DNA of 64,000 bases from positions 10,746,341-10,810,340 of the forward strand of contig NZ_KQ976354.1 in assembly GCF_000346485.2 (NCBI RefSeq). Reading direction: 5' to 3'. A program made the position numbers and the translations under genes. The DNA is from Scytonema hofmannii PCC 7110 (GTDB taxonomy: Bacteria; Cyanobacteriota; Cyanobacteriia; Cyanobacteriales; Nostocaceae). Shown piece after piece: positions 52,028 through 64,000 of the stretch. Positions within the stretch are counted from its first letter, which is position 1, and the number at the start of each line of letters is the position of its first letter. The notes under the pieces were generated by a model that worked only from the letters and a program-made list of their open reading frames with translations, was not told the origin of the DNA and made no database searches.

Positions 52028-52276
52028 GAGACAGTTGGTGTTAGCAATATTGGTCAAATAGACATTTCCAGTGATTATGGTTTATTTAAACTTGAAGAGA
52101 TTAGTTTTGGGACTGAACAGGCAGCTTTTGGTGCTTTTAGTGCTGCTATTACAACATTCCAAGGCACAATGATTTTAAATTTCATTTTTTATGAGCCCAA
52201 GTTGCTAGTACAAGACGTGTCCTTTTCTGAACTGTCTTATCTGTCCTTTATTTTTCTGTGCAAAGACGATAATTAG
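52028..52276 (+). pseudogene. remnant of a condensation-like acyltransferase C-terminus
   Basis: The frame TVGVSNIGQIDISSDYGLFK, followed by TTFQGTMILNFIFYEP, matches the end of the gene at 57371-58081 (VTVGVTNIGRVDIFSDYGRF, TTFEDTMILNFMFVEP). It has lost everything upstream, and its TAG stop is provided by the end of the MITE that follows. It lies 430 bp before the PKS gene. Confidence 0.8.
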
Positions 52277-52708: not shown

Positions 52709-55700
52709 ATGGATGTTGAAGCCATTGCAATTATTGGGCTCGGATGCCGTTTTCCGGGAGCAATAAATCCAGAGGAATTTTGGCATCTCATCTGTAATCA
52801 GGTTGACGCGATCGCCCCCATTCCTTCTGCTCGTCAAAATCTACATTCCTGCTTTATTCCCGATTCCACTTCACCGAACCCGCAACTTATCCAGGGTGGT
52901 TTTCTAGAGCAGATCGATCAGTTCGATCCGCAATTCTTTGGCATTGCCCCTCAAGAAGCTGCCAGCATCGATCCTCAACAACGGCTGCTACTGGAAGTCA
53001 CTTGGGAAGCTTTGGAAGATGCTGGGTTAGTCCCTCAAAAACTCTCAGGAAGCGCAACGGGAGTTTTTGTTGGTATTACCGGCTCCGATTACTACGAAAT
53101 GATGGCAACAGAGCGCACGACAAATGGCTATGCAGTTACTGGCAACCTTAGCAGTGTGACTGCCAACCGCATTTCCTACATATTTAACTTTACAGGACCG
53201 AGTTTGGCAATTAATACGGCTTGTTCCTCCTCTCTAGTGGCGGTTCATCTTGCAATTCAGAGTTTGTGTCGCAAAGAATCTAGTTTAGCAATAGCTGCAG
53301 GCGTGAATATCATGCTGTTACCTGAGAACACAGCAAGCCTGAGAAATGCAGGGATGATCTCGACGACAGGACGTTGCAGAGCATTTGATGGTCAAGCCGA
53401 TGGCTTTGTTCGTGGTGAGGGAGTTGGTGTTGTAGTGCTGAAACTGCTGTCTCAAGCATTGGCAGACTGTGACCCCATTTATGCGGTCATTCGAGGTAGT
53501 GCAGTCAACCAGGATGGACGCAGTAATGGGCTAGCTGCTCCGAATCTACAAGCACAAGAGGCATTATTACGACAAGCTTATCAATATGCTGAAATTTCAC
53601 CAAGTTCAGTACAGTATGTTGAGGCACAAGGGACTGGAAGTTTGTTGGGGGATGCGATCGAACTCAAAGCCCTAGCAACTGTTTTAGGAGAAAATCGCTT
53701 TTTTGGAGATAAATGTCGTGTTGGTTCCGTCAAAACTAATATCGGACACTTAGAGGCAGCCAGTGGAATTGCCGGATTGATTAAAGTAGCGTTGTCTCTC
53801 AAGTATGGACAGATCCCGCCTTCCTTGCATTTTCAGCAGCCAAATCCGAATGTGGCATTAGATAAACTGCCTCTGCAAGTGCAGCAAAACTTGGAGGCTT
53901 GCAAGAGCGATCGCCCTTACATCGCAGGCGTGAGTGCGTTCGGCTTTGGCGGCACAAACGCTCATATAGTGATGGAAGCTTCCCCCGATTTAGTTGTGGA
54001 GTCTTCTGGGATTGAACGTCCCTTACATGTGCTGACTCTATCTGCCAAAACTGAAACAGCATTGCGAGCGCTAGCCCACCGTTATCACGAGTTTTTAGTT
54101 AATCATCCTGATGAGTCAATTGCCGATGTTTGTTTTAGTGCCAATACTGGCAGAACTCACTTTAACCATCGGCTAGCCGTGACTGGTGACTCTACAGCAC
54201 AATTTGCAGAACGTTTGGAGGCGTTTGCTGTAACTGGGCAATCGGCTGAGTTGGTAAGTGGCTTGGTAAAGCCAAAGAAGTTTCCAAAAATCGGATTTTT
54301 ATTCACTGGCTTGATTTACGACAAACTAGAACTGGATCGTCAACTGTACGAAACCCAGCCTGTCTTTCGCCAAGTTATCGATCGCTGTAATGCGATCGCC
54401 GAGCCGTTACTCGGAAAGTCTCTTATCGACATTCTTTATATCTCCGCAGCTGAGGAAACTGCCACTGCCAGCGATAGGGTTGGTAACTCAACGGCAGTAT
54501 TTGCCCTGCAAATAGCGCTTTGCGAGTTGTGGAAATCTTGGGGGCTCGAACCGTCGGTTGTGATGGGAGTAAGCTTAGGAGAATGGCCTGCTGCCTGTAT
54601 TGCTGGTATTTTGAGTCTGGAAGATGCGCTCAAGCTCTTAATCTCCGCACAGCGGCAAGTCCAATCTCAAAGCCAGAAGGGGAAGGTAAGCTTCGTATTT
54701 GCAGATGAAGAGCGAGTGGCAGCTGCAATTCAACCCTACGCTGACAAAGTTGTTATTGGTATGTTCGCAAGACCACTGCTGATGATCTCTGGTGAGCAAC
54801 AGGCAGTTGATGCAGTTATAGCTGCCCTGAAAGCAAAAGGAATCAAGACGATTCAGCCGGATGTTTCATACCCCTCTCATTCTCCTCTGATGAAATTGCT
54901 GGAAGCAGATTTTGCTTTTGCTCTTTCTTCTCCCCAAATCCCGATAATTTCTGGTATCACAGGGCAACTGTCTCCTGATGCAATGACCAACATTGAGTAT
55001 TGGAAGACTATCCTCCAAGAACCCGTGAGGTTTTCAACAGCGATGCAAACCATGCATTCGCTTGGAGTCACGATATTTGTCGAGATCGGACCAAAGTCCA
55101 ATCTATTGTCAATGGGTATCCGTTGCCTGCCTAAAGGAGTTGGGGTTTGGCTGCCCAGTTTGCGTGCAGGGCAATCCAGCTGGAAGCAGTTGTTGTCCAG
55201 TTTGGCACAACTTTATATTTTAGGAGCACCTGTTAATTGGTCAGGATTTGAGCAGGGCGATCGCCGCGATCGTCTACGACTACCCACTTATCCTTTTGAA
55301 CGACAACACTATTGGTTCAGCAGTAGTCGTTCGTCTCCACATGGCGATCTATCCCCACTACCTCACCGCTCTTTGATTTCTAGCTTACTTGACCGGGGAG
55401 ATTCGGCGGAACAGATTGTTCAACTTCTTGCCCAAACCGAATCATTTTCACGAGAAGAAGTGCAACTCCTACCAAAACTTATCACCGCTTTAGTTCGACA
55501 TCACCAGGAAACTGCATTCTCAACCGATGAACATGAATCTTCTTTGACCAACCCAACCACAAATCTAGACTTACGCATCCCTGAAGTTATTGCCCCTGAA
55601 TTGACTATTCCGTTAAGGCGATGGCAACTTGCGGCATCTGTAAAAGAACAGCAGCAACTGCTTGAAGAATATTTGAAACAACAGATTGCTAAAGTGTTGG

Positions 55701-57349
55701 GATTGGCTCCATATCAATTAGATGTTGAACAACCGCTTAATACCTTGGGGTTGGACTCGTTGATGTTAATTCAACTGGTAAACCGCATTAAAACAGACTT
55801 TGCTTTAGAGTTGTCAATAGAGGCGTTATTTGAAGATATGACCTCGATCGATCTGGTTCAACAATTACAAACCCAGTTGGGCTTGTTTAAAAGTGAATCT
55901 GATGATGCTCCCATGATGGCTACGAGGACAGGGGCTGTTGCTTTGCCTTTGTCTTTTGCTCAGGAGTCATTTTGGTCGCAACTAAAACTTGACCCAAGTA
56001 ATCCCTTTGCCAATCTACCCTTCATCCTGCACTTTACCGGTGAACTCGACATTCCAGCTTTAGAACGCAGTCTCAATGAGTTGGTGCATCGTCACGCTGC
56101 TCTGAGAACCACTTTTGATATTGCCGCAGAGCAACCCACTCAAATCATTCATCCGACCATGAATCTGCCGTTGTCGGTAGTGGATTTGCGATCGCGAAGC
56201 GGGCGATCTGCGCCATCGCGTAGTGTGTCCGTTCCCGGAGTTCCGACAGTAGAAGGACAATCGCTCTGTGAACCAGAACAGCAAATAGCAGTGCAACAGC
56301 TATCTCAACAAGAAGCTCAGCAACCATTTGATATTGTCCGGGGACCACTGGTGCGAACCACACTGCTGAACCTCTCGGAAAATCAACACATTCTGCTGAT
56401 TACCAAGCACCACCTGATTACAGATGGCACCTCTATGGTTATCTTTCTTCAGGAACTCGCGTGCCTCTACCAAGCATTTTCCCAAGGTCAACCCTCGCCC
56501 CTTCTGGAATTACCGATGCAGTATGCAGACTTTATTGTTTGGCAGCGTCAGTGGCTGCAAAAAGAGGTGCTGACGACACTGCAAAGCTACTGGCAGCAAA
56601 AACTTGCACCACATCTGGTCGTTCCTGAAATCAAAACAGATCTGCCTCGTCCTGCTATACCAAGATTGAAAGCAGCAATTTACCCCTTCCAAATATCTGA
56701 AGCCTTATCAGCACAACTCAAAGCACTTAGCAAACAGGAAGGGTGTACTTTATTCATGCTTTTATTAGCAGCTTTACAGATATTAGTGCATCACTATACA
56801 GGTCAGCTGAACTTCTGTATTGGCACTACCGTTGCCAATCGCAATCGAGCGGAGTTTGAAGCCTTGATTGGTTGCTTTATTAACCAGATTCCCATAAAAG
56901 CGAATTTAGAAGACAATCCCACATTCCGGCAAGTGCTTTATCTTGTTCGCAAAACTACTTTAGAAGCACATAGTTACAGCGCTCTTCCCTTGAAACATAT
57001 TTTGGAAACTGTACCTGTGTCTAAAACAGATAATATTCACTCATCTCCTTTACCAGTGCTTCTACTTTTCCACAATGAAATTCCCTTACTGACTGAGAAT
57101 GTCAAACTCTGCGATCGTCTTTATGTTCGGGTAGAAAATAGAAAATTCAGGGGAGCAAGACGGGATCTAACTTTGCATATGGGAGAAAGTAAAAAAGGCA
57201 TTTGGGGCGAGATGGAATACGATGTCGATCTGTTTTTTGAAAGTACAATTAATACAATTTTAGAAGATTTTATGATTTTACTTCAAAACATTGCCATTAA
57301 TCCAGATATCCAGATTTCAGAGGTACTGAGAAAACTGAGAAAAATTTAG
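52709..57349 (+). CDS. polyketide synthase-condensation hybrid (KS-AT-ACP-C)
   Basis: The 1,546-residue megasynthase has four domains. The KS (about 1-430) has the nucleophile Cys172 (NTACSSSL) and His347 (NIGHLEA), but the HGTGT His is replaced by Gln307 (EAQGTGS). The AT (about 525-850) keeps Ser622 in GVSLGEWP and an HSPLM His, but lacks the GQGSQ motif (FTGLIYDK) and has YPSH at the specificity position. An ACP (about 980-1060) carries Ser1017 (LGLDSLM). The condensation domain (about 1070-1540) has an intact HHLITDG (1234-1240). There is no KR, DH or TE. The enzyme is therefore likely to pass an acyl group from an ACP to an amine through the C domain, with a possibly non-elongating KS. 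Following genes on the same strand code for FAAL-ACP and P450s. A repeat-derived insert lies in the C domain near residue 1165. Confidence 0.92.
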   Translation: MDVEAIAIIGLGCRFPGAINPEEFWHLICNQVDAIAPIPSARQNLHSCFIPDSTSPNPQLIQGGFLEQIDQFDPQFFGIAPQEAASIDPQQRLLLEVTWEALEDAGLVPQKLSGSATGVFVGITGSDYYEMMATERTTNGYAVTGNLSSVTANRISYIFNFTGPSLAINTACSSSLVAVHLAIQSLCRKESSLAIAAGVNIMLLPENTASLRNAGMISTTGRCRAFDGQADGFVRGEGVGVVVLKLLSQALADCDPIYAVIRGSAVNQDGRSNGLAAPNLQAQEALLRQAYQYAEISPSSVQYVEAQGTGSLLGDAIELKALATVLGENRFFGDKCRVGSVKTNIGHLEAASGIAGLIKVALSLKYGQIPPSLHFQQPNPNVALDKLPLQVQQNLEACKSDRPYIAGVSAFGFGGTNAHIVMEASPDLVVESSGIERPLHVLTLSAKTETALRALAHRYHEFLVNHPDESIADVCFSANTGRTHFNHRLAVTGDSTAQFAERLEAFAVTGQSAELVSGLVKPKKFPKIGFLFTGLIYDKLELDRQLYETQPVFRQVIDRCNAIAEPLLGKSLIDILYISAAEETATASDRVGNSTAVFALQIALCELWKSWGLEPSVVMGVSLGEWPAACIAGILSLEDALKLLISAQRQVQSQSQKGKVSFVFADEERVAAAIQPYADKVVIGMFARPLLMISGEQQAVDAVIAALKAKGIKTIQPDVSYPSHSPLMKLLEADFAFALSSPQIPIISGITGQLSPDAMTNIEYWKTILQEPVRFSTAMQTMHSLGVTIFVEIGPKSNLLSMGIRCLPKGVGVWLPSLRAGQSSWKQLLSSLAQLYILGAPVNWSGFEQGDRRDRLRLPTYPFERQHYWFSSSRSSPHGDLSPLPHRSLISSLLDRGDSAEQIVQLLAQTESFSREEVQLLPKLITALVRHHQETAFSTDEHESSLTNPTTNLDLRIPEVIAPELTIPLRRWQLAASVKEQQQLLEEYLKQQIAKVLGLAPYQLDVEQPLNTLGLDSLMLIQLVNRIKTDFALELSIEALFEDMTSIDLVQQLQTQLGLFKSESDDAPMMATRTGAVALPLSFAQESFWSQLKLDPSNPFANLPFILHFTGELDIPALERSLNELVHRHAALRTTFDIAAEQPTQIIHPTMNLPLSVVDLRSRSGRSAPSRSVSVPGVPTVEGQSLCEPEQQIAVQQLSQQEAQQPFDIVRGPLVRTTLLNLSENQHILLITKHHLITDGTSMVIFLQELACLYQAFSQGQPSPLLELPMQYADFIVWQRQWLQKEVLTTLQSYWQQKLAPHLVVPEIKTDLPRPAIPRLKAAIYPFQISEALSAQLKALSKQEGCTLFMLLLAALQILVHHYTGQLNFCIGTTVANRNRAEFEALIGCFINQIPIKANLEDNPTFRQVLYLVRKTTLEAHSYSALPLKHILETVPVSKTDNIHSSPLPVLLLFHNEIPLLTENVKLCDRLYVRVENRKFRGARRDLTLHMGESKKGIWGEMEYDVDLFFESTINTILEDFMILLQNIAINPDIQISEVLRKLRKI

Positions 57350-57370
57350 ACTTTACAGCTAAAACTGAGC

Positions 57371-58081
57371 TTGTATCGTCCTAAAACTCTAAAGCTTGAA
57401 AAGTCTGTTTCTCTAGATTTACGTCGCTGTAATATGCTTCAAAAAAAGCTTAATAAAGAAATTACTGCACAATTTGTGAAACTTTGTCGAAAAGAAAGAA
57501 CAACGGTGCAGGGTGCTTTATGTGCAGCAATGATGTTGGCAGTAGCTAGACAACTTCAAAATAGAAATAAAGCAAATTTGCACCTTAGTTGCCGCTCTTT
57601 TGTTGATTTGAGAAAGCACCTCGAACCAGAAGTTCATCGAGAAAACTTAGGGACATTAGCTTCAGCTATCACTACATTACATAATATAGATATAAACACA
57701 TCTTTCTGGAATTTAGCGCGAGATGTTAGAGAACAATTAAAAGTAGGGTTACGAAAAGAATATCTCTTTAGTATAGTATTGATGTCGAAGAAAATTTTTG
57801 AGTGGCTTATGTATTTATCAAAGAAACCAATCGTCACAGTAGGTGTTACTAATATTGGTCGAGTAGACATTTTCAGCGATTATGGCAGATTTAAACTTGA
57901 AGAGATTAGTTTTGTACCTGCACAGGTATTTTTCAGTGGTAATTTTAATACGGCTGTTACAACATTTGAAGACACAATGATTTTAAACTTTATGTTTGTT
58001 GAACCTTCTATTAGTAAGGAAACAATCGAAACTTTAGTTAAGGATACAATCGATTGTATTATTAATGCTTGTAACGCATAG
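57371..58081 (+). CDS. condensation-like acyltransferase C-terminal half
   Basis: The frame codes for the C-terminal half of a condensation/alcohol-acyltransferase-like fold (TTVQGALCAAMMLAVARQL, VGVTNIGRVDIFSDYG, TMILNFMFVEPS). The N-terminal half with HHxxxDG is absent, so it cannot act alone. It is in the same frame as the PKS and separated from it by a single TAG (57347-57349); no stop lies between that TAG and this frame. It may be read through, translated from ATG 57434, or be a remnant. A shorter copy of the same end lies at 52028-52276. Confidence 0.6.
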   Translation: MYRPKTLKLEKSVSLDLRRCNMLQKKLNKEITAQFVKLCRKERTTVQGALCAAMMLAVARQLQNRNKANLHLSCRSFVDLRKHLEPEVHRENLGTLASAITTLHNIDINTSFWNLARDVREQLKVGLRKEYLFSIVLMSKKIFEWLMYLSKKPIVTVGVTNIGRVDIFSDYGRFKLEEISFVPAQVFFSGNFNTAVTTFEDTMILNFMFVEPSISKETIETLVKDTIDCIINACNA

Positions 58082-58172
58082 AATATACTTGAGTTTACTA
58101 GTATAATCCATATTCTAACAGACCTAGAACACTTATACCAATTTAATGTGAAGCTGCACATTATTTTTACCC

Positions 58173-58222
58173 CGCCTAACCTCCCCGATACCTTGGGGAG
58201 GTGCTGCAGGAGGTGGGGTTCT
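58173..58222. repeat. CCCCGCCTAACCTCCCC hairpin repeat
   Basis: ACCTCCCC and GGGGAGGT pair inside a longer imperfect stem (CCCCGCCT/AGGTGGGG). It lies in the gap before the FAAL gene and could end or process the upstream transcript. Confidence 0.6.
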
Positions 58223-58289
58223 TTCTATGCATCTTCATATGAAAACGGTATTAGAGTAAATTTGCAACGAGTTCAAGTACAAAACAGTA

Positions 58290-60422
58290 ATGCAGCACGA
58301 TTTTTTTTCAGTACATTCTCCCCAAGAAGCGACTTCAGTTAACCTGTTACGTTATCGAACGCTACAACAACCAAACCAAGTACCATATACCTTTTTGGTA
58401 GATGGAGAAACAGAAGAAGTTAGTTTCACTTATGAAACATTAGACCGAAAAGCACGCGCCATTGCAGCATTACTTCAAAGTATGAAAGCTTTTGGAGAAA
58501 GAGTGCTACTTCTCTACCCACCTGGACTGGAATTCATTGCTGCTTTTTTTGCGAGTTTGTATGCAGGTGTGACTGCTGTACCTGTGTATCCACCACGAGG
58601 TAAACAGCGGATGACAAGGTTGCAAGCTATTGCACAAGATGCACAGGCAACTAAAGCACTCACCACTTCATCTGTAATTACTAATTTGGCACAAAGCTTT
58701 AAAGAAGAACCAGAATTAGCAGCTTTGCAATGTATAGCAACTGATGAAATTGCCATAGATTTGGCAGATGATTGGTTTTTTCCTGAGATTGCTAACAACT
58801 CACTGGCACTTCTCCAGTACACGTCTGGTACGACAGGAAACCCCAAAGGGGTGATGGTGAATCATGACAATTTACTGTATAATTCCGCTTTAATTTATCA
58901 ATCTTTTGAGCATACACCTGACAGTCGAGGTGTCATTTGGCTTCCTCCTTACCACGATATGGGGTTGATTGGCGGAGTGCTACAGCCTTTATATGGTGGT
59001 TTCTCGGTTACGCTGATGTCGCCAGAGTCTTTCCTACAAAAACCCTTTCGCTGGCTAAAAGCTATTTCGGACTATCAGGCGACTACCACCGGCGGACCCA
59101 ATTTTGCTTACGATCTATGTGTTGACAAGATTACGGACGAACAACGCAAACACCTCGATTTAAGTAGTTGGGAGGTTGCTTTCAATGGTGCTGAACCTGT
59201 ACGGGCAGAAACTATTGAGAGGTTTTCAGTAACCTTTGCAGATTGTGGCTTTAGAAGAAGTGCTTTTTACCCCTGCTATGGAATGGCAGAAACGACTTTG
59301 ATTGTGTCTGGGGGTTGGAAAAAAGATCCACCAGTGATTCGCTTTGTGAAAGAGCAAGCTTTTAAGCAGAATCTGATTGTGACTACGAACAGCGAGTCAG
59401 AAAATGCTAGGGCGATTGTTGGTGTTGGTCATAGTAGCTTAGACCAAAAAATTGTGATCGCCAACCCAGAATCATTAACTCGCTGTCTGGATGGACAAAT
59501 CGGAGAAATTTGGGTTGCAGGATCAAGTGTGGCTGGTGGCTACTGGAAGAAACCCGAAGAGACACAACAGATTTTCAATGCACAACTGCAAGACACACAA
59601 GAAGGGCCATTTTTACGCACTGGAGATTTAGGATTTTTGCTTGATGGCGAACTATTTATCACGGGTCGCCTCAAAGATATGATGATTATTCGAGGGCAAA
59701 ATCATTATCCCCAGGATATTGAATTGACAGTTCAGAATAGTCATCCAGCGCTACGACCGAATTGTGGGGCAGCATTTTCTGTAGAGGTAGAAGGTGTTGA
59801 GCAGTTAGTTATTACTCAAGAGGTAGAGCGTACTTACTTACGTCAGTTGGATGTAGATGAAGTCGTTAAAGCCATTCGGCAGGCAGTGTCAGAGCAGCAC
59901 CAGTTACAAGTTTATGCCATTGTGCTACTGAAGACAGCGAGCATTCCGAAAACTTCTAGTGGTAAAATTCAGCGTCACGCTTGTCGAGTTGGGTTTCTAG
60001 ATGGAAGTTTGGATGTTGTCGGAGATTGGACAGCGAATCTTGAACAAACAGACTTACTGCAACTTCAAGCAGAAGTAAAAGACTTTTGGGAACAAGCGCA
60101 TTCTTCAGATGTTAATAAATCTGAGGTTGAGCAGAAATCGTTAAAGCCAACTTTTACAGAAAAAGAGATCCAAACCTGGTTGATTTCTCATCTTGCCTTG
60201 TACCTGAACATACCTCCTGATGAAATAGACATTCAAGAACCTTTTACTGCATATGGTTTAGATTCAGCAGTGGCAGTCAGCATGACAGGTGAATTAGGTC
60301 AATGGATTGGCTGTGAACTTGCAATTATTCTTTTCTGGGAATACCCTAGCATCGAAATACTAGCGCAGTATTTAGCAGAGGAATATAATTCATTGCCATC
60401 AATCCAATCTAATGTCAGTTAG
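58290..60422 (+). CDS. fatty acyl-AMP ligase fused to an acyl carrier protein
   Basis: The 710-residue protein starts with an adenylation domain of the FAAL class: YTSGTTGNPKGVMV near 177, LPPYHDMGLIGG near 220, FYPCYGMAETTL near 330 and the hinge TGRLKDMMIIRGQNHYPQD near 465. The last is typical of FAALs, which pass fatty acids to an ACP and not to CoA. The C-terminal ACP (about 625-700) has the phosphopantetheine Ser659 in YGLDSAVAV. It should activate a free fatty acid with ATP and load it on its own ACP to feed the PKS or the P450s. The P450 gene starts 34 bp after its stop, so an operon is likely. Confidence 0.93.
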   Translation: MQHDFFSVHSPQEATSVNLLRYRTLQQPNQVPYTFLVDGETEEVSFTYETLDRKARAIAALLQSMKAFGERVLLLYPPGLEFIAAFFASLYAGVTAVPVYPPRGKQRMTRLQAIAQDAQATKALTTSSVITNLAQSFKEEPELAALQCIATDEIAIDLADDWFFPEIANNSLALLQYTSGTTGNPKGVMVNHDNLLYNSALIYQSFEHTPDSRGVIWLPPYHDMGLIGGVLQPLYGGFSVTLMSPESFLQKPFRWLKAISDYQATTTGGPNFAYDLCVDKITDEQRKHLDLSSWEVAFNGAEPVRAETIERFSVTFADCGFRRSAFYPCYGMAETTLIVSGGWKKDPPVIRFVKEQAFKQNLIVTTNSESENARAIVGVGHSSLDQKIVIANPESLTRCLDGQIGEIWVAGSSVAGGYWKKPEETQQIFNAQLQDTQEGPFLRTGDLGFLLDGELFITGRLKDMMIIRGQNHYPQDIELTVQNSHPALRPNCGAAFSVEVEGVEQLVITQEVERTYLRQLDVDEVVKAIRQAVSEQHQLQVYAIVLLKTASIPKTSSGKIQRHACRVGFLDGSLDVVGDWTANLEQTDLLQLQAEVKDFWEQAHSSDVNKSEVEQKSLKPTFTEKEIQTWLISHLALYLNIPPDEIDIQEPFTAYGLDSAVAVSMTGELGQWIGCELAIILFWEYPSIEILAQYLAEEYNSLPSIQSNVS

Positions 60423-60456
60423 TGTTTGAAACCAATGAAATTGCCGAAACATAAAT

Positions 60457-61719
60457 ATGAACAAAAAAGCACTTAGTACTACAAATACCAAAAAAAAAGA
60501 GTCAGCAAAAGCATTCAAATTCAATCTTTTTGACCCTAAGTTTAACGCTAATCCTTATCCAACTTACCATCGCATCCGAGAAGAAGATCCGGTACATAGA
60601 TACTTTGTTGGAGGTGATTGGATCGTTACCCGCTATGCCGATGTCAAAGCAGTTTTAAAAAGTGGTTGTGTTCGTACTGATGATAGACCAAAATCAATAC
60701 AAGAAAGAAACAAATATCTCCAAGACAAGGAAAAGAATCTAAATACTCTTGCTTATACCACCAGCCGATTTTTATTTTATATGAATCCACCAGACCATAC
60801 TAGATTACGTGCATTGGTGGGCAAAGGTTTTTCTCCTGTAGTTGTTGAGCGTATGCGTCCCCATATTCAGGAAATTGTGGATGAATTGCTTGACAAAGTT
60901 CGACATAAGGGGAGTATGGACATTGTTGCCGATCTTGCCAGTCCACTGTCTGTTAGTGTAATTAGTAAGCTGTTGGGAATACCAAAAGAAGCTCAACAGC
61001 AGCTTCATCAGTGGGCTAATGTTTTGTCCCGTATTTTAGATCCACTGGTGTCACTAGAAGAATATCAAGCGATGAATAAAGCTACAGAAGAGATTCAGGA
61101 ATATTTACGTACTCTGATTGCCGAACGAGAAAAAACACCACAAGAAGATTTGATTAGTAATTTGATTGCAGCTCAAGAGCAAAACGATCGGTTAAGTCAA
61201 AAGGAAATATTAGCAGTTTGCACATTGTTATTCGCCGCTGGTGAAGAAACTACAGGTAATACAATAGGCAATGGAATGCTAGCATTGCTACAACACCCTC
61301 ACCAAATGGAACAGATCAAAAGAGAACCGACAATGATTCAAAGTGCTGTAGAAGAATTAATTCGCTACGATAGTGCAGTTCAGATGTTAACCCGTATTGC
61401 TACTGATAATTTAGAAATAGGCAACCAAACAATTAAAGCAGGCGAAAAGATAGTTCTTTGCTTAGGAGCAGCTAATCGAGATCCAGCGCAGTTTCCCGAA
61501 CCCGATCAATTAAATATTCATCGGAACCCGAATCACCACGTTGCTTTTGCTGATAGTATTCATTATTGCTTGGGAGCTGCACTAGCGCGGGTGGAGACTC
61601 AACTTGCTATTAACACATTGATGCAACAATTTCCTGATTTAAAGTTAGCTTCAAACCAACTGGAGTGGCGTCATAGCATCGTCTTGCGTGGCTTAAAAGC
61701 TCTACCTATAAGTTTTTAA
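60457..61719 (+). CDS. cytochrome P450, copy 1
   Basis: The 420-residue soluble P450 has the I-helix oxygen motif LLFAAGEETTGN near 260, the ExxR pair (EELIRYDS near 300) and the haem Cys371 in FADSIHYCLGAALA. The usual loop is FGxGxHxCxG; here both Gly residues before the Cys are replaced by Ala and Ser, while His, Cys and the last Gly remain. In FAAL clusters P450s often oxidise the ACP-bound fatty chain; that is likely here. Ferredoxin partner genes are not seen nearby. It is followed by a near-identical copy. Confidence 0.93.
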   Translation: MNKKALSTTNTKKKESAKAFKFNLFDPKFNANPYPTYHRIREEDPVHRYFVGGDWIVTRYADVKAVLKSGCVRTDDRPKSIQERNKYLQDKEKNLNTLAYTTSRFLFYMNPPDHTRLRALVGKGFSPVVVERMRPHIQEIVDELLDKVRHKGSMDIVADLASPLSVSVISKLLGIPKEAQQQLHQWANVLSRILDPLVSLEEYQAMNKATEEIQEYLRTLIAEREKTPQEDLISNLIAAQEQNDRLSQKEILAVCTLLFAAGEETTGNTIGNGMLALLQHPHQMEQIKREPTMIQSAVEELIRYDSAVQMLTRIATDNLEIGNQTIKAGEKIVLCLGAANRDPAQFPEPDQLNIHRNPNHHVAFADSIHYCLGAALARVETQLAINTLMQQFPDLKLASNQLEWRHSIVLRGLKALPISF

Positions 61720-61773
61720 AATTCATCTTTCTCAAGTAGTGTTTGAAACCAATGAAATTGCCGAAACATAAAT

Positions 61774-63054
61774 ATGAACAAAGAAGCACCTAGTACTACA
61801 AATACCAAAAAAATAGCGTCAGCAAAAGCATTCAAATTCAATCTTTTTGACTCTAAGTTTAACGCTAATCCTTATCCAACCTACCATCGCCTCCGAGAAG
61901 AAGATCCGGTACATAAATACTTTGTTGGAGGTGATTGGATCGTTACCCGCTATGCCGATGTCAAAGCAGTTTTAAAAAGTGGTTGTGTTCGTACTGATGA
62001 TAGACCAAAATCAATACAAGAAAGAAACAAATATCTCCAAGACAAGGAAAAGAATCTAAATACTCTTGCTTATACCACCAGCCGATTTTTATTTTATACG
62101 AATCCACCAGACCATACTAGATTACGTGCATTGGTGGGTAAAGGTTTTTCTCCTGTAGTTGTTGAGCGTATGCGTCCCCATATTCAGGAAATTGTGGATG
62201 AATTGCTTGACAAAATTCGGCACAAGGGGAGTATGGACATTGTTGCCGATCTTGCCAGTCCACTGTCTGTTAGTGTAATTAGTAAGCTGTTGGGAATACC
62301 AAAAGAAGCTCAACAGCAGCTTCATCAGTGGGCTAATGTTTTGTCCCGTATTTTAGATCCACTGGTGTCACTAGAAGAATATCAAGCGATGAATAAAGCT
62401 ACAGAAGAGATTCAGGAATATTTACGTACTCTGATTGCCGAACGAGAAAAAACACCACAAGAAGATTTGATTAGTAATTTGATTGCAGCTCAAGAGCAAA
62501 ACGATCGGTTAAGTCAAAAGGAAATATTAGCAGTTTGCACATTGTTATTCGCCGCTGGTGAAGAAACTACAGGTAATACAATAGGCAATGGAATGCTAGC
62601 ATTGCTACAACACCCTCACCAAATGGAACAGATCAAAAGAGAACCGACAATGATTCAAAGTGCTGTAGAAGAATTAATTCGCTACGATAGTGCAGTTCAG
62701 ATGTTAACCCGTATTGCTACTGATAATTTAGAAATAGGCAACCAAACAATTAAAGCAGGCGAAAAGATAGTTCTTTGCTTAGGAGCAGCTAATCGAGATC
62801 CAGCGCAGTTTCCCGAACCCGATCAATTAAATATTCATCGGAACCCGAATCACCACGTTGCTTTTGCTGATAGTATTCATTATTGCTTGGGAGCTGCACT
62901 AGCGCGGGTGGAGACTCAACTTGCTATTAACACATTGATGCAACAATTTCCTGATTTAAAGTTAGCTTCAAACCAACTGGAGTGGCGTCATAGCATCGTC
63001 TTGCGTGGCTTAAAGGCTCTCCCCGTTACCTTTAAATCATCAACGGCAACATAA
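61774..63054 (+). CDS. cytochrome P450, copy 2 (tandem duplicate)
   Basis: The 426-residue protein differs from copy 1 by about nine residues in the first 150, is identical from there to about residue 416 as far as I can see, and has a different end (VTFKSSTAT instead of ISF). It has the same FADSIHYCLG haem loop and AGEETT motif. The 5' leader (GTGTTTGAAACCAATGAAAT...) before both genes is also the same, with a period of 1,317 bp. This is a recent duplication or recent gene conversion. Confidence 0.93.
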   Translation: MNKEAPSTTNTKKIASAKAFKFNLFDSKFNANPYPTYHRLREEDPVHKYFVGGDWIVTRYADVKAVLKSGCVRTDDRPKSIQERNKYLQDKEKNLNTLAYTTSRFLFYTNPPDHTRLRALVGKGFSPVVVERMRPHIQEIVDELLDKIRHKGSMDIVADLASPLSVSVISKLLGIPKEAQQQLHQWANVLSRILDPLVSLEEYQAMNKATEEIQEYLRTLIAEREKTPQEDLISNLIAAQEQNDRLSQKEILAVCTLLFAAGEETTGNTIGNGMLALLQHPHQMEQIKREPTMIQSAVEELIRYDSAVQMLTRIATDNLEIGNQTIKAGEKIVLCLGAANRDPAQFPEPDQLNIHRNPNHHVAFADSIHYCLGAALARVETQLAINTLMQQFPDLKLASNQLEWRHSIVLRGLKALPVTFKSSTAT

Positions 63055-63128
63055 GGAATTCAAGGTTTTGCCTATGGTGGCAAGAATTAAACTTTTACAG
63101 TACCAGTTCATTATTAATAAGTCTAGAC

Positions 63129-64000
63129 ATGAGTAGTTGTATAACAGAGGATCAAAAAATACTCCTTCAAGTCGTTCAAATGATCCTAAATTACTTACAG
63201 GAACAGCAAATAGGCACGAAGGTAGTCGATTATCAAAGCCCTGATATACTTAAGAAAAAACTCGATTTAAGTTTACCAGAGGAGGGTGTTTCTTTATCAG
63301 AGCTATTCGGTGTGATTCAATCGTACCTCCAGTATAGTACCCGGACTAGTAGCTCGAATTTTTTCAATCTACTCTTCGCCGGTTTCCAGCCAGAAGGACT
63401 ACTGAGTGAAATGGTTACGAGCGTAACTAACAATACTATGCACACCTACGAGAGTTCGCCAGTTGCCACACTTATGGAGATGGCTTTGATTGATGCTCTC
63501 AATAGTATGGTAGGTTTCGACTCTGGTGAGGGTTTGATGGTTACAGGTGGCAGCAACGCAAATGCGATCGCGATGCTACTAGCGCGACATAAATTACTAC
63601 CTGAGACTAAACATACTGGGTTGGGCGGCTCAAAGCTTGTAGCGTTCATTTCAGAACAGGCGCATTATTCCTTTCTTAAAGCAGCAAATCTGTTAGGAAT
63701 TGGAATGGAAAATGTTGTCAAAGTAAAGACCGATCGCTTAGGCTGCATGATTCCACAGGAATTAGAAGCTGCAATTATCCAGAGCTTGAATGACGGGAAA
63801 ACGCCAATATTTGTTGGTGCCACTGCCGGGACGACTGTTCTTGGGGCTTTTGACCCTTTCCCATCTATTGCACAAATAACCCGTAAATACGAACTTTGGC
63901 TACATGTGGATGGTGCTTGGGGCTGTCCTGTCTTATTCAGTCGCAAGCACAAGCACTTGTTGGCGGGAAGTGAGCTAGCGGATTCTTTTACTTGGGACGC
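63129..64000 (+). CDS. group II PLP-dependent decarboxylase (3' cut by window)
   Basis: The first 290 residues of a PLP enzyme of the glutamate/aromatic/diaminobutyrate decarboxylase group are present: SSSNFFNLLFAGFQPEG near 75, MVTGGSNANAIAMLLAR near 137 and LWLHVDGAWG near 257, which holds the PLP-binding Asp. The sequence ends at DSFTWDA, just before the catalytic Lys. It probably makes an amine from an amino acid, for example diaminobutyrate, glutamate or aspartate, to be joined to the fatty acid by the cluster. The ATG at 63129 begins MSSCITEDQK. It follows the P450 by about 75 bp, so it may be in the same operon. Confidence 0.88.
   Translation, partial: MSSCITEDQKILLQVVQMILNYLQEQQIGTKVVDYQSPDILKKKLDLSLPEEGVSLSELFGVIQSYLQYSTRTSSSNFFNLLFAGFQPEGLLSEMVTSVTNNTMHTYESSPVATLMEMALIDALNSMVGFDSGEGLMVTGGSNANAIAMLLARHKLLPETKHTGLGGSKLVAFISEQAHYSFLKAANLLGIGMENVVKVKTDRLGCMIPQELEAAIIQSLNDGKTPIFVGATAGTTVLGAFDPFPSIAQITRKYELWLHVDGAWGCPVLFSRKHKHLLAGSELADSFTWD

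Follow-up and report, generated by a model that had tools for sequence, protein, structure and literature searches.

The locus at the end of the Scytonema hofmannii PCC 7110 stretch analysed here (the window: 64,000 nucleotides, G000:C1:10746341-10810340, in a genome of 12.3 Mb) raises the question of whether a fatty acid loaded by a fatty acyl-AMP ligase (FAAL) is extended by the polyketide synthase (PKS) encoded beside it, and of what the chain is then joined to. The window encodes a PKS protein with ketosynthase (KS), acyltransferase (AT), acyl carrier protein (ACP) and condensation (C) domains, a FAAL fused to an ACP, two cytochrome P450s and a group II pyridoxal phosphate (PLP) decarboxylase; 40 kb across and beyond the window end was also examined. 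Comparison of these sequences with their relatives somewhat favours a reading of the locus as one strain's own version of a so far uncharacterised family of clusters in the Nostoc/Brasilonema group, whose product would be a fatty-acyl conjugate that is oxidised but not extended.

The KS and AT domains identify where extension would be lost. Among 42 distinct KS domains, taken from loci retrieved as relatives of the window's genes, nine carry the triad Cys-Gln-His, the first His (that of HGTG) being replaced by Gln, and these nine are exactly the clade of the window's KS, termed KS0; the triad is Cys-His-His in all 33 others. The Cys and the second His are kept in every one of the nine. The nine sequences are monophyletic (support 100/100, 100% of 200 bootstrap trees) and the branch leading to them measures 0.57 changes per column; the tree leaves the canonical sister group unsettled. 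Three features are gone from the accompanying AT, termed AT0, in all nine members: GQGSQ, the GHSxG His and the Arg in the IAxR column. This Arg is taken here to be the residue that holds the malonyl carboxylate, after FabD Arg117; a literature search on it brought up nothing of use. The other ATs keep the Arg in 32 of 32 cases, the GHSxG His in 31 of 32 and an exact GQGSQ in 30 of 32, and the residues that stand in place of GQGSQ vary among the clade members. All 41 ATs retain the Ser and the final His of the dyad, and the ACP of the PKS protein has its Ser. The protein lacks both the KS triad and the AT residues (GQGSQ, GHSxG and Arg) of an elongating cis-AT PKS module and has the pattern of a non-elongating KS0, in which the HGTG His is lost and the Cys kept. 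In the available passages of PMC4661987 the HGTGT His is needed for decarboxylative condensation and its loss is read as the mark of a non-elongating KS. Given the loss of the extension residues from both KS and AT, the PKS protein most likely serves as a relay rather than as an elongation module.

The ratio of nonsynonymous to synonymous change (dN/dS), as a mean over 10 non-independent pairs of five C-bearing members (the window, G344, G367, G244 and G374) set against five canonical relatives, is 0.153 for KS0 and 0.128 for the canonical KS, and 0.270 for AT0 and 0.175 for the canonical AT; the ACP and C of the same five members give 0.237 and 0.231, and the FAAL has a ratio of 0.224. KS0 is under nearly normal constraint despite the loss of its first His, and AT0 under somewhat looser constraint. 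Sequence searches of the PDB with the C, AT and KS domains returned chains of PKSs, non-ribosomal peptide synthetases (NRPS) and fatty acid synthases, none of them a special relative of use here.

The genes of the locus are given below in window coordinates, aa and nt denoting amino acids and nucleotides.

52031..52204, + strand: remnant of a PapA acyltransferase (tblastn; covers residues 355-413 of a 437-aa relative at 73% identity)
52709..57349, + strand: KS0-AT0-ACP-C protein, 1546 aa (Pfam KS, AT, ACP and Condensation; motif alignments, tree, dN/dS)
57371..58081, + strand: C-terminal half of a PapA-type acyltransferase (PF16911; aligns to residues 196-434 of a 437-aa relative)
58290..60422, + strand: FAAL-ACP, 710 aa, with the GLDS motif present in the ACP (Pfam AMP-binding and PP-binding, NCBIfam, motif)
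60457..61719, + strand: cytochrome P450a (Pfam P450; AGEET, ExxR and heme Cys motifs present)
61774..63054, + strand: tandem copy of P450a (Pfam P450; 97% aa and 98.3% nt identity to P450a)
63129..64000, running on to 64562, + strand: group II PLP decarboxylase of the GADL1/CSAD/GAD type (Pfam Pyridoxal_deC)
64595-65272 (L003:1636-2313; L003 coordinates are offset by +62959 from those of the window): broken threonine-synthase-like gene, 32 bp after the decarboxylase

Every gene from the PKS to the decarboxylase lies on the + strand, the successive gaps from PKS to PapA half, FAAL, P450, P450 and decarboxylase being 21, 208, 34, 54 and 74 bp, and the domain content, single strand and short gaps (21-208 bp) described in an earlier, sequence-only reading of this DNA are borne out, the domains by Pfam. 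That reading had not recorded the PapA half and remnant, the recent P450 duplication, the broken threonine-synthase-like gene or the KS and AT residue losses. The PKS, FAAL, both P450s and the decarboxylase are full-length open frames ending at a stop. The FAAL has an AMP-binding fold near the FAAL models and an ACP to load (PF00501 and PF00550 above cut-off); in NCBIfam its top row is PRK05691, the N-terminal part of an NRPS/PKS model, followed by fatty-acid--AMP ligase models, all under their curated cut-offs. The two P450s arose by a recent tandem duplication (98.3% nt identity over 1263 bp, dS 0.034, dN 0.011, with about 37 bp upstream also shared), and the second copy is not the distinct P450b of the relatives, to which identity is only 49-55%; no P450b of the relatives' type was found in the window stretch examined.

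The C domain is near full length (PF00668 positions 5-444 of 456) and, with the motif HHLITDG, has the HHxxxDG of an NRPS condensation domain; HHLITDG[TS] is present in all four C domains tested. The PKS protein ends after C, so that the adenylation (A) domain and peptidyl carrier protein of an NRPS module do not follow. Across the cluster proteins and four downstream open reading frames (ORFs) that were scanned for domains, there is no A domain other than that of the FAAL, no NRPS domain besides C and no thioesterase (TE), the last as had been noted for the part then seen. Loading by the FAAL, oxidation by a P450 and joining by C to a free nucleophile, as previously proposed, fit a C domain with HHxxxDG and with no A or TE domain after it, and release by a C domain onto free putrescine is documented for the glidonins in the available part of PMC10587159.

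Relatives of the cluster were sought in a family sample of 217 genomes and an order sample of 243, with two to eight candidates scored per genome (two for KS-AT in the order sample, four in the family sample), and the counts are lower bounds. KS-AT relatives at 76-84% identity occur in at least seven other family genomes (8 of 217 with the window, G262 holding two copies on two contigs); below the KS0 clade, identity falls to 53-56% in at least 11 further genomes and a second G244 locus (matches with E up to 1e-290). Among the candidates scored in the order sample, no KS-AT match other than the window exceeds 54%. FAAL-ACP relatives at 75-88% are present in eight genomes and P450a orthologues at 73-89% in at least eight other genomes of the family sample, one of them partial at a contig edge. 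The conserved core is FAAL-ACP plus P450a, shared by the window and eight relatives, and the KS0-AT0-ACP protein, with or without C, is found in eight of these nine genomes. The named relatives include G267, taken as Brasilonema sp. CT11, G262, Brasilonema angustatum, G374, Nostoc sp. NMS7, and G244, Amazonocrinis nigriterrae. Elsewhere in the window's own genome (G000:C1:2089697-2093778) a P450 with 51% identity to P450a is followed by a KS-AT protein at 52%, which by identity does not belong to the KS0 clade.

Around this core the neighbours vary. The C domain is present in six of the nine clade members (the window, G344, G367, G244, G374 and contig C53 of G262) and missing from G264, G267 and the second G262 copy. 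SerC, a phosphoserine transaminase, lies in the clusters of G374, G367, G244 and G262, all four of which encode a KS0 protein with C (581.7 bits to PRK12462 in G374 and 574.5 in G244, cut-off 563), and no cluster-type SerC was found outside those four clusters in 10 genomes searched (E up to 1e-30), the window's included. Full PapA genes, both with HHAISDG, are present in G264 and G344, and PapA and SerC were not found together in the stretches examined. The fullest cluster, that of G374, reads in transcription order SerC, KS0-AT0-ACP-C, an OlsE-like hydroxylase (PF04116; 195 bits to the OlsE model, under its cut-off of 475), FAAL-ACP, P450a, P450b, a PF05118 hydroxylase, HlyD and FtsX. G262 has the same kinds of gene in a different order over two contigs, the OlsE-like gene of G367 is broken over two frames, and in the 37 kb contig of G267 both C and PapA are missing and P450b and the hydroxylase survive only as remnants. 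An HlyD and FtsX pair adjoins the cluster in two genomes (L085:4070-6534 and L126:6472-8875) and resembles DevB/DevC-type exporters. The two KS0 proteins of G262, on two contigs (L079/L080 and L126), one with C and the other without, both align only from residue 164 onward, which points to a repeat that the assembly collapsed or broke.

Taken as a pathway, these genes would act in five steps. As inferred from its family, the FAAL would adenylate a free fatty acid and load it onto its own ACP, and P450a would then oxidise the ACP-bound chain. KS0, with Cys and the second His and no first His, would accept the acyl group and, with no decarboxylative condensation, transfer it to the ACP on its own polypeptide, as the conserved His-to-Gln change suggests; AT0, given its lost Arg, would load no malonate and may be structural or may transfer another acyl group. 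The C domain would finally release the chain onto a small amine. The acceptor in C-bearing relatives may be serine-derived, given SerC in four genomes, and PapA in two relatives suggests an ester product there. The window strain looks like a G344-type cluster (C and PapA, no SerC) that has been modified since, its acceptor side apparently rebuilt: PapA would have decayed, P450a been duplicated and a decarboxylase been gained, perhaps supplying a decarboxylated amine, and it is possible that an amine so derived feeds the C domain.

A stronger form of this last point, that the decarboxylase is the amine supplier of the pathway and the product an N-acyl amine (an N-acyl beta-alanine, gamma-aminobutyric acid or taurine-type lipid), is a tentative alternative at best. 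The decarboxylase follows the P450s on the same strand after 74 bp and is intact past the window edge (477 aa, ending at window coordinate 64562), the C domain has its HHxxxDG, and another PLP enzyme, SerC, sits in the cluster of four relatives. Its nearest PDB sequences are GADL1, CSAD and GAD67/65 (E 3e-104 to 2e-100), and its PLP Lys and substrate-site Arg are kept. However, three observations stand against it. First, no orthologue is present in any of the eight relatives with the P450/FAAL core (seven also with the KS0 protein) nor in one other genome of the same genus; the best matches in these nine genomes are 27-35% identical in seven and absent at E 1e-30 in two. Second, its relatives at 61-69% occupy 11 loci, four of which had their neighbours scanned and there adjoin unrelated genes with no FAAL gene among them. 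In the order sample 15 of 243 genomes, the window's counted, have a match to the decarboxylase at 1e-60. The 11 loci fall into two sets according to the residues near the substrate site: FFNQL/MYTYE in five, with an ATP-grasp gene adjoining in both that were scanned (L017 and L027), and FFNLL/MHTYD in six, of which L018 has a methyltransferase gene and L026 a sulfotransferase gene; NCBIfam gives only Cas6 above cut-off among the neighbours in the four loci. It is possible that the two groups of cyanobacterial GAD-like decarboxylases belong to small-molecule pathways of their own. The window enzyme reads FFNLL/MHTYE.

Third, the substrate site itself is altered. GADL1 Gln120 and Arg494 are named as substrate-binding in the available part of PMC7367687, and when placed on the alignment of the PDB match via Lys333 numbering, counted by hand, Arg494 is Arg in the window decarboxylase and the predicted-essential Gln120 is Leu, while the YTYE of GADL1 and CSAD is MHTYE, a nearby Tyr being His. 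Because of these two changes it cannot be taken for granted that the enzyme acts on aspartate, cysteine sulfinate or glutamate. A further substrate-site position (Ser in GAD, Tyr in GADL1, Phe in CSAD) is described without a number in the same part of PMC7367687, and the available passages of PMC5947694 and PMC10594873 did not settle the substrate of the window enzyme. A core role for the decarboxylase, as implied by the sequence-only reading, is not supported, given the missing orthologue in all eight core-bearing relatives and the non-FAAL neighbours in four of the 11 loci; the gene looks like a strain-specific add-on.

Extension of the sequence past 64,000, which the sequence-only reading had called for, completes the decarboxylase and leads next to the threonine-synthase-like gene, which has lost its middle part and changes frame. 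A route to taurine in which this gene would be a cysteate synthase was considered and rejected: the match is to threonine synthase PRK08197 at 244.9 bits (cut-off 303), and to cysteate synthase at 35.7 (cut-off 324.9), and the idea is further undercut by the missing middle, the shifted frame and the lack of a counterpart in other genomes, none being found in the 242 other order-sample genomes at E 1e-40. The eight plasmid matches listed for the gene are from Azospirillum, at 46-49% identity, and are threonine synthase where annotated. The broken gene is followed by a GAF/PHY protein and a GAF histidine kinase, and farther on resolvase-like and TnpB-like ORFs overlap out of frame at L003:7127-8933 (window 70086-71892), an IS607-type arrangement as judged from the translations.

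It might instead be proposed that the KS-AT is a noncatalytic remnant of a lipopeptide starter module, kept as a scaffold, and that only the FAAL, the P450 and C (or PapA) act. The nearest canonical KS-AT relatives by identity (53-56%), with the sister group unsettled as above, include several FAAL-P450-PKS loci followed by NRPS-like ORFs, and the raised dN/dS of the AT and the non-uniform replacement of GQGSQ are what a scaffold would allow. This is nevertheless unlikely for two reasons: the KS ratio is close to the canonical one, and the Cys and second His of the KS and the Ser and His of the AT are kept in all nine members, none of which a pure scaffold would need.

It is likewise improbable that the window cluster is a dying copy, once of the PapA type like G344 and now making nothing. 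The signs of decay are the PapA half gene and the second PapA remnant, the broken threonine-synthase-like gene, the absence of a cluster-type SerC from the genome and the lack of the relatives' P450b type in the stretch examined. The PapA half in particular is probably inactive because the half that holds HHxxxDG is missing, and it does not qualify as a PapA acyltransferase. Against general decay stand the full-length open frames of the PKS, the FAAL, both P450s and the decarboxylase, and the recency of the P450 duplication. Least probable of all is that KS0 has gained new chemistry and itself forms an amide or ester bond directly, for all its long stem followed by strong constraint, and its occurrence without C in G264, in G267 and in a single copy out of the two of G262. 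The full PapA (HHAISDG) of G264 could do the release in place of C, and G267, which lacks C and PapA alike, has P450b and the hydroxylase only as remnants.

The reading as a conjugate pathway with a non-extending relay must itself be set against several observations. G339 has the FAAL, P450a, P450b and the PF05118 hydroxylase yet no KS0 protein within 40 kb, and therefore KS0 is not needed in every version. Two of the six C-bearing members, the window and G344, are without SerC. AT0 is less constrained than canonical ATs, so that the protein may be in slow decay, and the window cluster carries pieces of broken genes and so may itself be failing. The stretches available from relatives span about 5-40 kb, several stopping at contig edges, and a gene absent near the cluster need not be absent from the pathway.

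A wider proposal, put forward tentatively, is that a cis-AT PKS module was converted once into a dedicated acyl relay (KS0-AT0-ACP, frequently fused to C), which would join P450-oxidised fatty acids to small acceptors that can be exchanged. The acceptor would be a serine-derived amine in clusters with SerC, an alcohol in those with PapA and a decarboxylated amino acid in the window. With the SerC, two hydroxylases and HlyD/FtsX of G374, the product would be an exported hydroxylated aminolipid built by PKS/NRPS parts, not by the OlsB/OlsA-type enzymes of the Ols pathway. If the main reading as a non-extending relay is right, taking the KS0 protein for an ordinary extension module would predict the wrong product, and the cluster family of Brasilonema, Nostoc and related genera would be re-read as lipid-conjugate pathways. 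The nine sequences would offer a natural series descended from a single loss of extension that was never reversed, with which to ask about the role of a KS and an AT that no longer extend, and the swapping of SerC, PapA and decarboxylase beside one acyl-relay core would make the question of the acceptor directly testable.

Among known systems, no description of this cluster type was found by text search of the open PMC literature, in keeping with the earlier remark that the gene order was not recognised from known pathways. The available part of a FAAL review lists products and has no cluster of this kind, the gene sets in the available parts of the nocuolin and laxaphycin papers differ from the window's, and the Brasilonema CT11 paper, in its available part, counts 36 antiSMASH clusters, four of them 100% and two more than 75% similar to known ones. 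The laxaphycin/scytocyclamide and puwainaphycin starter lines, as given in the available parts of their sources, resemble the window in that a FAAL-ACP feeds a KS-AT-ACP step; the laxaphycin PKS, however, lengthens the chain and introduces an amino group. Within the family sample, the KS-AT and P450 relatives nearest by identity include FAAL-P450-PKS loci with NRPS-like ORFs, and FAAL-initiated lipopeptide lines are in that respect close. Unlike them, the window has lost the KS and AT extension residues and shows, in the proteins scanned, no non-FAAL A domain, NRPS line or TE; it has neither the extending PKS nor the NRPS line of a FAAL-P450-PKS-NRPS lipopeptide cluster, and the KS0 clade stands apart from the other KSs. 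The KS0s of trans-AT PKSs also have the HGTG His replaced and the Cys kept, as in the window, whereas the window KS0 sits in a cis-AT module with a degenerate AT, beside a FAAL and P450s. The available part of PMC4661987 describes the same replacement of the HGTG His in non-elongating KS0s, and in its algal KS0s the Cys is shifted, whereas here it is kept.

On the acceptor side, the PapA proteins of G264 and G344 share with PapA5-type acyltransferases a PapA_C match above cut-off and HHAISDG, while their PapA5 NCBIfam scores (76-77) are far under the curated 396. The window decarboxylase shares the PLP Lys and substrate Arg of GADL1, CSAD and GAD and differs from them by the Leu at Gln120 and by MHTYE in place of YTYE. 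As to release, the window and the glidonin or VibH-like systems have in common, to judge from the available part of PMC10587159, HHxxxDG in a terminal C domain and no A domain to load the acceptor; the glidonin C is followed by further domains, whereas that of the window ends its protein and has a KS0-AT0-ACP protein as its donor.

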